Shown here in pieces: positions 28,103 to 37,263 of a stretch of DNA of 52,817 nucleotides (the stretch's first letter is position 1; each line of letters opens with the position of its first letter). The notes beneath the pieces are model-generated. The model did not search any database, had not been told where the DNA came from, and saw only the letters and a list, made by a program, of their open reading frames with translations. A program made the position numbers and the translations under genes. This stretch comes from Leptolyngbyaceae cyanobacterium SM1_4_3 (GTDB lineage Bacteria; Cyanobacteriota; Cyanobacteriia; Elainellales; Elainellaceae), in assembly GCA_012031415.1 (NCBI GenBank), contig JAAUTN010000011.1, forward strand, positions 1-52,817, given 5' to 3'.

Positions 28103-28356
28103 GCGAATTTTGCTTGATGGGTGATGCCTACCTTATGAGACTGAGGTAAGTAGCAATTGTTGAGGGGGCGATCGCCCCAATCAAATCTGCTGTAGTCACG
28201 ACACAAACTTCTGTGGTCACGACAGCGGCTCCTGAATTCATCACAAAACCTGCTGTCGTAAAAGCCCTAGACGATCCATCAGTTCTACTCAGCAGCCACC
28301 GCTGTCTAAATTGCTCTAAAATTGGCTTTAGTCGCCAAACTCGAACAAGTGTACTA

Positions 28357-29259
28357 ATGTCAGGAAACGACTTCAACTCAAATCAAGCTGTAGACAGTAG
28401 CTCTACTCAAGAAATTCAAACAAGCATTTTACTGGGTGACTGTCTGGAAAAGCTAACCCACTTTCCAGACAACACATTTGATTTGATCGTCACCTCCCCT
28501 CCCTATGCCGATAGTCGCTCAAAAACTTACGGCGGAATCAAACCGGATGAATACGTTGAGTGGTTCCTACCCAGAACTGAAGAATTTTTGAGAGTACTTA
28601 AACCCAGCGGAACATTTATTTTAAATATTAAAGAGAAAGTAGTTAACGGCGAAAGACATACTTACGTCCTAGAGCTAATCCTGGAGATGAAGAAACAGGG
28701 ATGGCTGTGGACCGAGGAGTTTATATGGCACAAGAAAAATTGCTATCCAGGCAAGTGGCCAAATCGATTTAGAGATGCCTGGGAAAGGTGCTTACAGTTC
28801 AACAAGAGCAAAAAATTTAATATGTATCAAGAGTCTGTCATGGTTCCAATGGGGAACTGGGCTGAGACTCGATTAAGAAACTTGAGCGAAACAGACAAAA
28901 TTAGAGATGAATCAAAAGTTGGAAGTGGATTTGGAAAAAACATTTCTAACTGGTTGAACAGAGATAAAGTTTATCCAGCTAATGTTATTCACTTATCAAC
29001 TGAATGCGGCAACAGAAAACATAGCGCAGCCTTTCCAAAAGCTTTACCAGAGTGGTTTATCAAGCTTTTTACAGAAGAAGGAGATTGGATACTTGACCCT
29101 TTTCTAGGATCTGGAACGACCTGCCAAGTTGCTCAAGAGCTACATAGAAATTCTGTTGGAATTGAGATTTCCTCTGAATACTATGACCTGGCTTCATCTA
29201 GCCTAAAGCCCATTCAGCATAAGCTTTTTGAGAGACCCTCACAGTATGCCGCCCATTGA
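28357..29259 (+). CDS. DNA methyltransferase, m4C type, of a restriction-modification pair
   Basis: A 300-residue amino-methyltransferase. The catalytic motif IV TSPPYAD is near 46-52 and SAM-binding motif I DPFLGSGTT is near 246-254, so the order is beta class. SPPY indicates N4-cytosine modification. SILLGDCLEKLTHFPDNTFDLIVTSP and the C-terminal VGIEISSEYY are typical. ATG 28357 is preferred; a longer frame reaches 28213 but its first 48 residues resemble no methyltransferase. It overlaps the downstream endonuclease gene by 14 bases, so the two are translated together. Base composition is A-richer than cpcT and proA on either side, a sign of transfer. The recognition sequence cannot be read from the protein. 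Confidence 0.9.
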   Translation: MSGNDFNSNQAVDSSSTQEIQTSILLGDCLEKLTHFPDNTFDLIVTSPPYADSRSKTYGGIKPDEYVEWFLPRTEEFLRVLKPSGTFILNIKEKVVNGERHTYVLELILEMKKQGWLWTEEFIWHKKNCYPGKWPNRFRDAWERCLQFNKSKKFNMYQESVMVPMGNWAETRLRNLSETDKIRDESKVGSGFGKNISNWLNRDKVYPANVIHLSTECGNRKHSAAFPKALPEWFIKLFTEEGDWILDPFLGSGTTCQVAQELHRNSVGIEISSEYYDLASSSLKPIQHKLFERPSQYAAH

Positions 29260-29983
29260 GCAACAGGAAATAGTTCGGTATGTTGAGGAAAACATTCCTC
29301 AATTTCACCAAAGCCGCATCAATGGTTTGAGGAATTTAAAGTTACAGACAGTTCTCAGAAGAAAAAACCCATATCTCTTTAGAGCCAAGAATGTGATTAC
29401 TGCTAGTGATCTTGTTAAAGGATTATTGGACGCTCATCTATCGTCCTCCGAAGAAGGGTTATTTGGAGGATTTATGGAGGGACTTGCTGTATTTATCTGC
29501 GCTAGAGTATTTAACGGCAGAAAATCTTCTTCTGAAGGAATAGATTTAGAATTTGAACGAGAGAAGATTAGATATATCGTCTCTATCAAATCTGGACCCA
29601 ACTGGGGTAACAGTTCTCAAATTAGGAGAATGGTTGATAACTTTAGTAGAGCCAAGAAGGTACTGAGAACTAACACGTCCTCAGTCAATGTAGTTGCTGT
29701 GAATGGATGTTGCTACGGGAAAGATGATCAGCCCGACAAAGGTGAATATCTCAAGTTATGTGGGCAACGTTTCTGGGAATTCATCTCTAACAATGAATTC
29801 CTATACACAGATATCATTGAGCCTCTTGGATACAGAGCTAAAGAAAACAACGAACAATTTGAGCAGGAATATGGCAAGGTAATCAACCGATTTACCCTTG
29901 AGTTTATGCAAAACTTCTGTGATGCAGAAGGGCAGATTGTTTGGCAAAGAATTGTTCAATTAAATTCAGCAAAGAAAATTTGA
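29246..29983 (+). CDS. PmeII family type II restriction endonuclease
   Basis: A 245-residue protein that I recognise as the PmeII restriction-endonuclease family from IVRYVEENIPQFHQSRINGL, RRKNPYLFRAKNVITASDLVKGLLDAHLSSSEEGLFG and VVAVNGCCYGKDDQPDKGEYLKLCGQRFWEFIS. The probable nuclease core is SSEGIDLEFEREKIRYIVSIKSGPNWGN near 95-120, a PD-(D/E)XK variant with Asp, then Lys in VSIKSG. ATG 29246 lies inside the methyltransferase gene; a TTG at 29228 is also in frame. PmeII-like enzymes cut DNA unmethylated at a short site. The overlapping methyltransferase supplies host protection. Confidence 0.87.
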   Translation: MPPIEQQEIVRYVEENIPQFHQSRINGLRNLKLQTVLRRKNPYLFRAKNVITASDLVKGLLDAHLSSSEEGLFGGFMEGLAVFICARVFNGRKSSSEGIDLEFEREKIRYIVSIKSGPNWGNSSQIRRMVDNFSRAKKVLRTNTSSVNVVAVNGCCYGKDDQPDKGEYLKLCGQRFWEFISNNEFLYTDIIEPLGYRAKENNEQFEQEYGKVINRFTLEFMQNFCDAEGQIVWQRIVQLNSAKKI

Positions 29984-31673: not shown

Positions 31674-31805
31674 CACTTTGCCATAGCCTCAAACTTTTGC
31701 ACAAATCAGGTTAGCGCAACCTAAACCCACTGTCCAGTAACCAGTACGTTATAGCTTGGCTTGTTAATGACTATGATGAACAAAAAGAACTAAAAGAACC
31801 GATGC

Positions 31806-32493
31806 ATGGATGATCAAGAACTAGCAGCACTTCTGTTTGATCTTGAGTCTGATCGAGTTGAGCGTAAAGCATCAATTTCAGACGGAAAAAAAACGGCAGG
31901 CAATTTGTGCTTTTGCTAACGACTTACCAAACCACAAAAAGCCTGGAGTTCTTTTTGTAGGAGTGAACGATGACGGCACCTGCGCTGGCTTGTCAATTAC
32001 AGATGAGCTTCTTCTAAGTCTTTCCAATATACGCTCTGAGGGGAAGATACTACCCTTTCCAGTATTGCAAGTTAATAAGCGTATTCTAAATGGGTGTGAA
32101 TTGGCAGTCATAATTGTGCAACCATCAGATGCTCCTCCGGTACAGCCTGACTACCCCATCGTAGCGTTGCAGCAGCTTGTACGAAACGCAGTTATGCATC
32201 GTTCCTATAAGGAAACTAATGCTCCAGTTCGAGTTTATTGGTTTAATGATCGAATTGAAATTCAAAGTCCAGGTGGATTATTTGGGCAAGTAAATCGTCG
32301 AAATTTTGGTCAAGGTGTTACTGACTATCGAAATCCCCATTTGGCAGAAGCTATGAAGAACCTAGGCTATGTTCAACGCTTTGGCGTTGGCATTCCGACT
32401 TCTCAAAAAGAGTTAAAAAAGAATGGGAATCCACCAGCGGAATTCATTATTGAGGATTCTTATATGTCAGTCACTATCAGGAGGCAACCATGA
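31806..32493 (+). pseudogene. AlbA_2/HATPase_c_4 ATP-binding protein, frameshifted and internally deleted
   Basis: The start ATG 31806 gives MDDQELAALLFDLESDRVER KAS, the Schlafen-like AlbA_2 entry, split here only for length. The frame breaks in the A-run 31886-31893, eight A where seven would keep the frame. It continues QAICAFANDLPNHKKPGVLFVGVND and stops abruptly at QPSDAPPV near 32140. There it jumps straight to LQQLVRNAVMHRSYKETNAPVRVYWFND and GVGIPTSQKELKKNGNPPAEF of the C-terminal HATPase_c_4/winged part. From memory, full members carry about 150-200 extra residues at that point. The last codons overlap the start of the ParA-like gene by four bases. Family members are often labelled putative DNA-binding or transcriptional regulators; the function of this pair is unknown. 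Confidence 0.75.
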
Positions 32494-33560
32494 CCACACC
32501 AATTATTGCCTTCTTCAATAACAAGGGAGGAGTCGGGAAAACATCTCTCGTCTATCATTTAGCTTGGATGTACTTCGATTTAGGGTTACAAGTAGTAGCA
32601 GCAGACTTAGATCCTCAAGCTAACTTAACAGCGGCTTTCTTAGATGAAGATCGATTGGAAGAAGTTTGGGAAAGTAGTAATTCAAATAACTACAATACTG
32701 TCTTTCGATGCGTTAGACCCTTATTAAGTGGCATAGGTGATATCGCAACTCCGAATTTAGAAAAAATAGAAGATGGATTAAGCCTTTTAATCGGAGATTT
32801 ACAACTTTCTGGATTTGAAGATGAGTTATCGTCTCAGTGGTCTGATTGCCTTGATCGCAAAGAACGAGCGTTCAGAGTCATTTCAGCTTTTTGGCGGGTT
32901 TTGAGTCAAGCTGCTTCCAGTACTAGTGCTGATGTTGTCTTAGTTGATTTAGGACCTAATTTAGGAGCAATTAATCGGGCGGCTCTTATTGCCTCAGATT
33001 ACATTATCGTCCCCCTCTCACCAGATCTTTTTTCATTGCAGGGTTTGAAGAATCTTGGGCCGACCGTAAAGCGTTGGAGAGAAGAATGGCGAGAGCGAAT
33101 TCCTAAAAATCCAGCTCTAGACCTCGCTTTGCCTCAAGGGAAAATGCAGCCTGTTGGTTATGTTATTCTCCAACACGGTGTGAGATTTGATCGACCTGTA
33201 AAAGCATTTCAACGATGGATAGAAAAAATTCCTGGGATCTATAGAGAAAAGGTGATTGAGAACCCTAAATCTGACAACGAGGAGTTAACTCAGAAACAAG
33301 ATGAAGTGGCTTTAGCCCCTTCAAGTGATCCAAATCGCTTGGCGTTGCTTAAACATTATCAAAGCCTAATGCCAATGGCTCAGGAATCTCGCAAGCCCAT
33401 CTTCCACCTCAAACCTGCGGATGGAGCGATCGGTGCTCACATTGATGCTGTAAGGCTAGTGTATTGGGATTTCAAGGATTTAGCCCAGAAGATTGCTAAT
33501 CGAACTGAATTACTATTGCCTAGTTCCCAATCCTCTCTTGAACTGGAATTAAAGAAATAG
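32490..33560 (+). CDS. ParA-like (MinD/ParA) ATPase paired with the AlbA_2 protein
   Basis: A 356-residue ATPase. The deviant Walker A is KGGVGKTS (12-19, signature Lys12), followed by VVAADLDPQANLTAAFL and by the Walker B/motif DVVLVDLGPNLGAINRAALIASDYIIVPLSPDLFSLQGLKNL near 150-190. The C-terminal third is unlike plasmid ParA, and no parB or centromere-like repeat is nearby. So chromosome segregation is not implied. The ATG overlaps the AlbA_2 stop codon (ATGA at 32490-32493), so translation is coupled. Base composition is A-richer than the flanking core genes. The partner may act with it in a mobile or defence-type module, but this is inference. Confidence 0.85.
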   Translation: MTTPIIAFFNNKGGVGKTSLVYHLAWMYFDLGLQVVAADLDPQANLTAAFLDEDRLEEVWESSNSNNYNTVFRCVRPLLSGIGDIATPNLEKIEDGLSLLIGDLQLSGFEDELSSQWSDCLDRKERAFRVISAFWRVLSQAASSTSADVVLVDLGPNLGAINRAALIASDYIIVPLSPDLFSLQGLKNLGPTVKRWREEWRERIPKNPALDLALPQGKMQPVGYVILQHGVRFDRPVKAFQRWIEKIPGIYREKVIENPKSDNEELTQKQDEVALAPSSDPNRLALLKHYQSLMPMAQESRKPIFHLKPADGAIGAHIDAVRLVYWDFKDLAQKIANRTELLLPSSQSSLELELKK

Positions 33561-33630
33561 CTCAGTTGCATGAGAGTTTTAAGTGCCAGTCCAACTGTGT
33601 TTGTACTTCAGTATTTCTGTATCAATATCA

Positions 33631-33998
33631 ATGGACTCTATTCAAGTAACTGGAATTCGAGCGTTTGGGTATGTTGGACTGCTGCCGGAGGAGCAGGTTT
33701 TGGGGCAGTGGTTTGAGGTTGACCTGACGGTGTGGTTTGACTTGGCGAAGGCGGGGGAGAGCGATCGCATTGAAGACACCTACGACTACCGCTCAGCTAT
33801 TACCGCAGTGCAACAGCTAATCAAAGCTGAGAAATTTGCCCTGATTGAGAAACTGGCGGGGCGATCGCCACCCTAATTCTAGAATCTGGCGTCGAGCAAG
33901 TCCGGGTGCGCGTCACCAAAGTAGCGGCTCCCATTCCAGATTTTGACGGCAGGATTGCTGTAGAAATTACCCGAACTCGTAACCCTGTAGCTTCGTAA
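33631..33998 (+). pseudogene. folB: Dihydroneopterin aldolase FolB, one-base frameshift
   Basis: Read across a break in the G-run 33858-33861, this is a complete 122-residue FolB. DSIQVTGIRAFGYVGLLPEEQVLGQWFEVDLTVW is the family start, DTYDYRSAITAVQQLI and FALIEKLAG carry the catalytic Lys region. After the break IATLILESGVEQVRVRVTKVAAPIPDFDGRIAVEITR is the expected C-terminus. One G is missing (four present, five needed). FolB cleaves dihydroneopterin to 6-hydroxymethyl-dihydropterin and glycolaldehyde in folate synthesis. The rest is intact, so the break may be a sequencing error. Confidence 0.85.
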
Positions 33999-36070: not shown

Positions 36071-37263
36071 TTAAACGGCGATCGCCTGCCCACCTTTGTT
36101 CAATTTCTGGCAAAATTCCAGCACGGACTGTCTGGCCCACTGGTCAGCCGCCACGATGTCTTCCAGTAACGGAGCCGCATGATTATCAGCCTGGTGCGAT
36201 CGCACACTTGCTCAATCAGCCGAGGAATATCCAAAAACTGAATTTTTTCCTCTAGAAAGAGCGCAACAGCCTGTTCGTTAGCGGCATTGAGAACGGCAGG
36301 CATTGAACCCCCGGCTCGCCCCGCTGCATAGGCTAGCTGCATACACGGGTATTTCTGATGGTCAGGCTCTCGAAACGTTAGATTCCCCGCTTTAACCAGG
36401 TCTAGCCGCTCCCAGTCCGTTGAAATTCGCTCTGGGTAGGAGAGGGCATACAGCAAGGGCAACCGCATATCGGGCAAGCCAAGCTGTGCCAGCACAGAGG
36501 TGTCTTCTAGCTCGATCAGCGAGTGAATAATGCTTTGAGGGTGGATTACGATTTCGATATGGTCATAATTCAACCCAAATAGAAAATGCGCCTCGATCAC
36601 CTCCAACCCCTTGTTCATCAACGTGGCAGAGTCAATGGTAATCTTGCGCCCCATCGTCCAATTGGGGTGCTTTAGCGCGTCGGACACTTTCACAGTCGCC
36701 AACTTCTCAACGGGCAAGTCTCGGAATGCGCCGCCAGAGGCAGTTAGCAAAATTCGCCGCAACCCTCCTTCAGGAACCCCTTGCAGGCATTGAAAAATGG
36801 CGGAGTGTTCTGAGTCGGCAGGCAACAGCTTGATCCCATGCTTTTCGACCAGGGGTAAAACGACTGGGCCGCCTGCAATTAGGGTTTCTTTATTGGCTAG
36901 AGCAATATCTTTCCCAGCTTCGATCGCTGCAATGGTGGGCAAAAGTCCGGCACAGCCTACAATTCCAGTGACGACAGCTTCCGAGTTGCCGTAGCGGGCA
37001 ACCTCGACCACGCCTGATTCGCCTGCTAGCAATATGGGTTGGGGATCAAGGTCAGCGATCGCCTCCTGCAAAACGCCCAACTGAGTTGTGTCACAAATCG
37101 CTGCAATTTGGGGGCGAAACTGGCGAATTTGCTGAGCCAGCAGTTCAGCATTACGTCTGGCTGCCAATCCGACGATCTGAAACTGATCGGGATATTCAGC
37201 CACAATATCCAGGGTTTGAGTGCCGATAGAGCCAGTGGAGCCAAGCAGAGTAATCGGTTTCAA
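36071..37263 (-). CDS. dxr: 1-deoxy-D-xylulose 5-phosphate reductoisomerase, frameshift near the C-terminus
   Basis: A 397-residue Dxr when read across one break near 36196. [20 protein letters not shown] is the NADPH-binding start. [25 protein letters not shown] and [15 protein letters not shown] hold the metal- and substrate-binding residues. The break falls after LIEQVCDR, where a G is missing on the plus strand (GGTGCGATCG instead of GGTGGCGATCG). The true end then reads [23 protein letters not shown] in two parts and finishes at the TAA 36073-36071. Without the correction the frame ends at 36100 with a non-family tail. Dxr makes MEP in isoprenoid, carotenoid and chlorophyll phytol synthesis and is essential in cyanobacteria, so the break is probably a base-calling error. 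Confidence 0.93.

Follow-up and report, generated by a model that had tools for sequence, protein, structure and literature searches.

The window, a stretch of 52,817 nucleotides from Leptolyngbyaceae cyanobacterium SM1_4_3, carries a broken SLFN_AlbA_2/HATPase_c_4 gene followed by an intact ParA-like gene at positions 31806-33560 of the + strand, as seen in Table 1. The coordinates and anatomy given in a preliminary description of this DNA were right: SLFN_AlbA_2 (PF04326, 9e-9) and HATPase_c_4 (PF13749) both fall within one shortened gene, and the TGA of this gene and the ATG of parA share the bases ATGA (32490-32493). The same description called the ParA gene full length with no parB nearby, and this holds, with the KGGVGKT motif intact and parA flanked by albA_2 and folB. 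It also placed the pair correctly between proA and folB. The block is an insertion, since only 3 bp separate the proA stop from the folB ATG in a congener of the same genus (G002), compared to 1,957 bp in the window. The pair is absent from both congeners, and the left 100 bp of the insert has no match in them. Just upstream of proA, the window also holds a complete-looking type II restriction-modification pair (28213-29983), made up of an N4/N6 methylase and an EcoO109I-like endonuclease (PF14511, 6e-90).

Table 1. Features of the albA_2-parA locus, in window coordinates
Feature	Position	Strand	Basis
Inserted block with the pair, proA stop to folB ATG	31674-33630	+	proA-folB spacing in congener G002 (L105)
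Conserved cassette leader	31764-31805	+	DNA homology to intact cassettes starts at 31764
TATGAT, plausible -10 of the pair's own promoter	31772-31777	+	Motif in aligned flanks; putative promoter function
albA_2 (Schlafen) start: 37-aa frame with conserved ATG, E14 and E19; stop after frameshift	31806-31919	+	
A8 tract; gene 2 bp shorter than in relatives directly 3'	31886-31893	+	Possible assembly error
Remaining SLFN_AlbA_2 domain, residues 31-113, with D56/D57; frame differs from 31806-31885	31894-32141	+	
Deletion junction, one base in place of 502 bp of relatives (residues 114-280)	32142-32142	+	blastn against L061, L053, L062, L065 and L068
albA_2 3' part: HATPase_c_4 (GHKL-like) C-terminal domain	32143-32493	+	PF13749, 8e-19; 93-95% identity to relatives
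parA/soj-like ATPase gene, 356 aa, intact, ATGA overlap with gene 1	32490-33560	+	PF13614, 2e-27
GTCCAAC, cassette-end core (RYYYAAC); homology to other cassettes ends exactly here	33589-33595	+	

In its intact form, the first gene encodes an AlbA_2 domain at the N-terminus and a GHKL-like HATPase_c_4 domain at the C-terminus, separated by a middle region. PF04326 scores 36.3 bits with the window copy and 53.1 bits with an intact relative (G053), against a curated cut-off of 25.3. Across 10 intact relatives, an ExxxxE pattern is seen in which E14 and E19 are invariant, together with at least one D at residues 55-57. We take the spacing of this pattern, E-x4-E followed by a D some 38 residues later, to agree with that of SLFN11/13. 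The AlphaFold models were poor (pLDDT 54), too poor for the middle domain, with the AlbA_2 part mostly at 70-87. With the low-confidence model of gene 1, Foldseek matched DIP2311 (3lmm) and, weakly, SLFN5/11/12/13/14 and the tRNase domain of SAMD9. The preliminary description assigned the AlbA_2 domain a role in DNA binding, but the ExxxxE pattern and the downstream D are better read as signs of a putative Schlafen RNase domain.

The product of the second gene has a deviant Walker A motif, KGGVGKT, at residues 12-18, falls in PF13614 and matches 3pg5, Soj and ParA. Its nearest solved structure is DIP2308 (3pg5), and it has a long C-terminal part. The NCBIfam partition models scored far under their cut-off with it, and the partner gene is albA_2, not parB, in all of the 38 more similar loci described next.

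ParA matches were found in 32 of 390 sampled cyanobacterial genomes, or 29 of 160 genera. Two of the 32 matches (G009 and G201) have only 38-40% identity and no albA_2 alongside. Among all distinct loci with a ParA of more than about 50% identity, albA_2 or a remnant of it lies directly upstream of parA, on the same strand and overlapping or nearly touching it, in 38 of 38. The hosts are 30 of the 390 cyanobacterial genomes, an archaeal Methanosarcinales MAG, an Omnitrophota MAG and two viral contigs. The linkage on which the earlier cassette proposal depended is thus universal above about 50% ParA identity, and the genes around the pair vary from genome to genome. By eye, the flanks look housekeeping in most cyanobacterial loci and not like defence islands. 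One ParA (L055:8149-9207) has KGRVGKT in place of KGGVGKT at Walker A and is possibly an inactive ATPase, judging from this motif; the Schlafen gene beside it is intact. Two ParA homologues lack a Schlafen partner (L107:5248-8071 and L031). Nearly identical RelE-like toxin genes lie near both, and the L107 homologue is also near an integron integrase fragment. These two loci are perhaps further cassettes.

Lesions in the upstream gene

Alignment to 396-aa relatives showed that the window albA_2 lacks 167 residues, which agrees with an earlier estimate of 150-200. The net loss is 501 bp, in frame overall. It takes the end of the AlbA_2 domain, including an invariant R-V-G motif. There is also a second lesion, the 2-bp loss after the A8 tract, which was overlooked when the internal deletion was first noticed. 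This frameshift splits E14 and E19 from the rest of the frame, so that the ATG at 31806 opens only 37 residues.

Two other genes of the window, folB (33631-33990) and dxr (36074-37263), are each frameshifted by one base compared to the two congeners, at about 33858 and 36196, respectively. Since dxr is presumably essential, indel errors are likely in this draft assembly and the 2-bp lesion is uncertain. The folB and dxr frameshifts are likely assembly errors, other frameshifts in the window need care, and the 2-bp frameshift in albA_2 may be an error of the same kind. The 502-bp deletion does not resemble such an error.

Homologues of equal length without the middle segment were looked for and none was found; no homologue has the same deletion, and the 27 intact copies of the pair all have a full-length albA_2. 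Two other copies with internal deletions (L070 and L088) break at different points. The window gene is a damaged copy, not a natural variant. Programmed frameshifting at the A8 tract was considered and rejected as the main reading, since the frame is uninterrupted in most relatives, several relatives have no slippery run and the lesions of broken relatives lie elsewhere, except in L074.

Across the 38 loci, 27 pairs are intact, seven have lesions in albA_2 only (the window, L057, L058, L063, L070, L088 and L102), two have lesions in both genes and none in parA only; two were not judged. The imbalance is modest, with p about 0.013 under the assumption that genes are hit in proportion to their length, and draft frameshifts may inflate it, although assembly errors would hit both genes alike and so dilute the bias. 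A costly or toxic effector would be expected to be lost in this way, with the ATPase retained. Purifying selection acts on both genes, with dN about 0.03-0.09 and dS about 0.5-1.6 in most close comparisons, and the window parA has dN about 0.07-0.09 and dS about 0.9-1.4 against its nearest relatives. The remnant pieces of the window albA_2 are as constrained as intact genes and evolve no faster, suggesting that the inactivation was recent or that the short product is still used.

Integron cassette ends

An 87-bp attC-like site lies upstream of the pair in five close relatives (L053, L061, L062, L063 and L065). In each, the R and L boxes that mark the end of the cassette are paired. The site in L063 reads GCCTAAC (R''), GTTCG, CGCTCACCGGA ... 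TCCGGTGCAGCG, CGGTT and GTTAGAC (R'), with the extra base in one L box that is typical of attC. The downstream limit of homology in the relatives is GTCTAAC, and the conserved unit spans from just past one RYYYAAC core to the next. Since the unit ends at these cores, the genes must face opposite to those of normal cassettes. The extra L-box base is on the side that we presume, from attC anatomy, to be expected for the reverse orientation. In L062, intI adjoins the pair and the pair reads toward the integrase. The integron of the window's own genome lies on contig C32 (L167); there, the genes of the cassettes point away from intI and the attC sites have the same orientation. The pair in these five relatives is carried as an integron gene cassette, inverted relative to attC.

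Integron integrases (TIGR02249, above cut-off) were found in 12 of 32 searched genomes, including that of the window, where the match is on contig C32. A covariance model of attC detected 101 sites in this genome (G000), often lined up on one strand at intervals of about 1 kb; the comparison genomes had 0-3 sites, but G004 had 23. In an alignment of 24 sites (21 from the host and three from G002), the pairing showed covariation, with 73 double-changed cells compared to 28.6 after shuffling, and slid versions lost the signal, though the alignment was fitted to the model and so leans towards it. The window copy retains only its right-end core (Table 1), and no attC match was found at its left end near 31674. 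The integron origin, to which the attC sites beside the pair in five relatives and the GTCCAAC end in the window point, was not recognized in the preliminary description.

Rows of cassettes were seen in the host on contigs C32, C73, C276, C616 and C473 (L164-L168). Among their genes are one for a Dcm-type methylase, probably with its restriction partner, and, as judged by eye, HicAB-like and VapC/PIN-like genes. The two-gene unit beside the Schlafen-ParA cassette of a Limnothrix MAG (L063:2875-3546) recurs near attC in the window's genome (L166:404-1076), suggesting that cassettes are common to different genera.

Partners of the ATPase and interpretation

Related ParA genes in prophage-like contigs overlap or just precede a SIR2_2 gene (L132 and most of L134-L149); this partner was found in 14 viral contigs and one plasmid (Spirosoma, L155). 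In five or six cyanobacteria (L032-L037), a related ParA gene likewise overlaps or just precedes a HEPN gene. A maximum-likelihood tree of 45 ParAs placed those linked to Schlafen, SIR2 and HEPN in one strongly supported group each, with some long branches and an unsure deep order. HEPN partners are confined to the clade of L032-L037, and the window ParA is paired with AlbA_2. On one contig classed as viral (L129:550-10342), the Schlafen-ParA pair lies between PglX and PglZ-BrxL in a BREX operon. A D12 adenine methyltransferase gene is next to the pair or one gene off in L128 and L071. PADLOC has no dedicated family for either window protein or for the ParA-SIR2 pair, and assignment to a known defence family was rejected because PADLOC and NCBIfam gave only weak or generic matches.

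We conclude, with a probability of roughly 0.6, that the locus is a mobile two-gene cassette of the toxin-antitoxin or abortive-infection type, present in the window as a damaged copy and made up of a Schlafen effector and a ParA-like antitoxin or sensor. It is from the exchange of partners and the lesion bias that we infer such a role. In an intact pair, the Schlafen-type effector would combine its AlbA_2 RNase domain with the middle region and the GHKL-like HATPase_c_4 domain. The translationally coupled ParA/Soj-like ATPase would restrain this effector and release it, or else activate it, upon a cue of infection or stress. Cleavage of RNA, probably tRNA, by the effector would then stop growth. 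Interchangeable effectors, namely Schlafen, SIR2 and HEPN proteins, could be served by the same ATPase family. In cyanobacteria, the pair moves as an integron cassette; since it faces the other way from attC, it would carry a promoter of its own. The window cassette landed between proA and folB, after which the internal deletion, and possibly the frameshift, would have knocked out the effector while the ATPase stayed intact.

The preliminary description had offered a two-gene cassette with a regulatory, mobile or defence role. Mobility and defence fit the 38 of 38 linkage, the empty site in the congener, the attC ends, the exchange with SIR2 and HEPN and the BREX copy; a purely regulatory role found no support. 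More generally, we see an even chance that ATPases of this ParA/Soj-like family act as a common switch for defence effectors of several kinds (Schlafen RNase, SIR2 NADase or HEPN RNase, depending on the clade), and that the Schlafen version spreads among cyanobacteria as an integron cassette, which would connect integron arrays with Schlafen-based immunity.

Another possible explanation, though an unlikely one, is that the pair is a plain addictive toxin-antitoxin cassette that stabilizes integron arrays and has no dedicated anti-phage role. Integron arrays are rich in toxin-antitoxin cassettes (PMC9668308), HicAB-like and VapC/PIN-like cassettes were seen by eye in the host arrays, and the pair, with its leader, is short and self-contained. 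However, some copies of the pair have no detectable attC, one of them in the BREX operon of L129 and others in viral contigs, and partners of the SIR2 type are typical anti-phage effectors.

It is less probable still that the AlbA_2/HATPase protein binds nucleic acids to regulate the ParA gene or genes close by, which would make the pair regulatory and not toxic. Proteins with AlbA_2 and HATPase_c_4 domains are often annotated as putative DNA-binding regulators, and translational coupling would suit a regulator and its target. Against this, the SLFN carboxylate pattern is conserved, the neighbors vary between genomes, so that there is no common target, and the same ATPase family partners SIR2 and HEPN enzymes.

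We give similarly low odds to the window gene being a functional miniature. Provided that the frameshift stems from misassembly, the deletion would have left this variant in frame, with its C-terminal domain retained and still coupled to ParA. The overall frame of the deletion, the lack of relaxed constraint in the remnants and the assembly indels nearby would be consistent with this, and the deletion copies L070 and L088 also retain the C-terminal end. However, one third of deletions are in frame by chance, the deleted copies each have their own breakpoints with none in common, and the window deletion removes the end of AlbA_2 with its R-V-G motif. Finally, the ParA/Soj fold and the frequency of ParA genes on plasmids could suggest that ParA serves in the partition of an integrated plasmid or mobile element, with the Schlafen gene as a passenger, but we rejected this reading as very improbable because no ParB gene lies beside parA, no plasmid record has the Schlafen protein, plasmid ParA matches are below 40% identity and the ParA belongs to a distinct family whose extended C-terminal part is common to the SIR2- and HEPN-linked relatives.

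Relation to known systems

In animals, Schlafens are antiviral proteins that cut tRNA, and they now turn up in bacterial immunity as well. A dedicated ParA-like partner common to Schlafen, SIR2 and HEPN effectors would, if true, be a testable shared control switch. In the published papers searched, no description was found of the Schlafen-ParA and ParA-SIR2 pairs or of the integron mobility of the former; ParA-HEPN pairs and Schlafen effectors have already been published.

The ParA/Soj-HEPN (MAE_18760) dyad was proposed as a toxin-antitoxin system (Anantharaman et al. 2013; PMC3710099). Like the window pair, it has a ParA/Soj-like ATPase beside an RNase-type effector, and the HEPN-linked ParAs found here are of the same family as that of the window, at about 30% identity. 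In contrast to the dyad, the effector of the window is a Schlafen AlbA_2-HATPase protein encoded upstream of parA instead of downstream, and the ParA belongs to a separate clade.

Bacterial Schlafens with a C-terminal histidine-kinase-like domain have been described as BREX-linked or BREX-related effectors (PMC12839542). As summarized in that paper, which cites a 2025 preprint, Schlafen-linked systems are able to act in phage defence via tRNA cleavage; the terms Soj, MinD and SIMIBI are absent from it. The proteins studied here share the combination of AlbA_2/Schlafen with a C-terminal GHKL/HATPase domain, and the pair in L129 sits within BREX genes, but most of the pairs are alone or in integron cassettes.

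DIP2311 (3lmm) and DIP2308 (3pg5), the solved structures nearest to gene 1 and gene 2, respectively, are both from Corynebacterium diphtheriae and belong to one genome, three locus numbers from each other. This suggests a related pairing in C. diphtheriae, although the numbers are not directly adjacent, the sequence identity to our pair is low and both proteins are uncharacterized.

Integron toxin-antitoxin and restriction cassettes, such as those of Vibrio superintegrons and archaeal integrons (PMC9668308), resemble the pair in being short and mobile, in their attC sites and in carrying cargo of the toxin-antitoxin or defence type. The pair differs from them in the type of cargo, in the inversion of its genes relative to attC and in its cyanobacterial host. 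If the interpretation is true, little-studied cyanobacterial integrons ferry Schlafen-ParA modules between genera.
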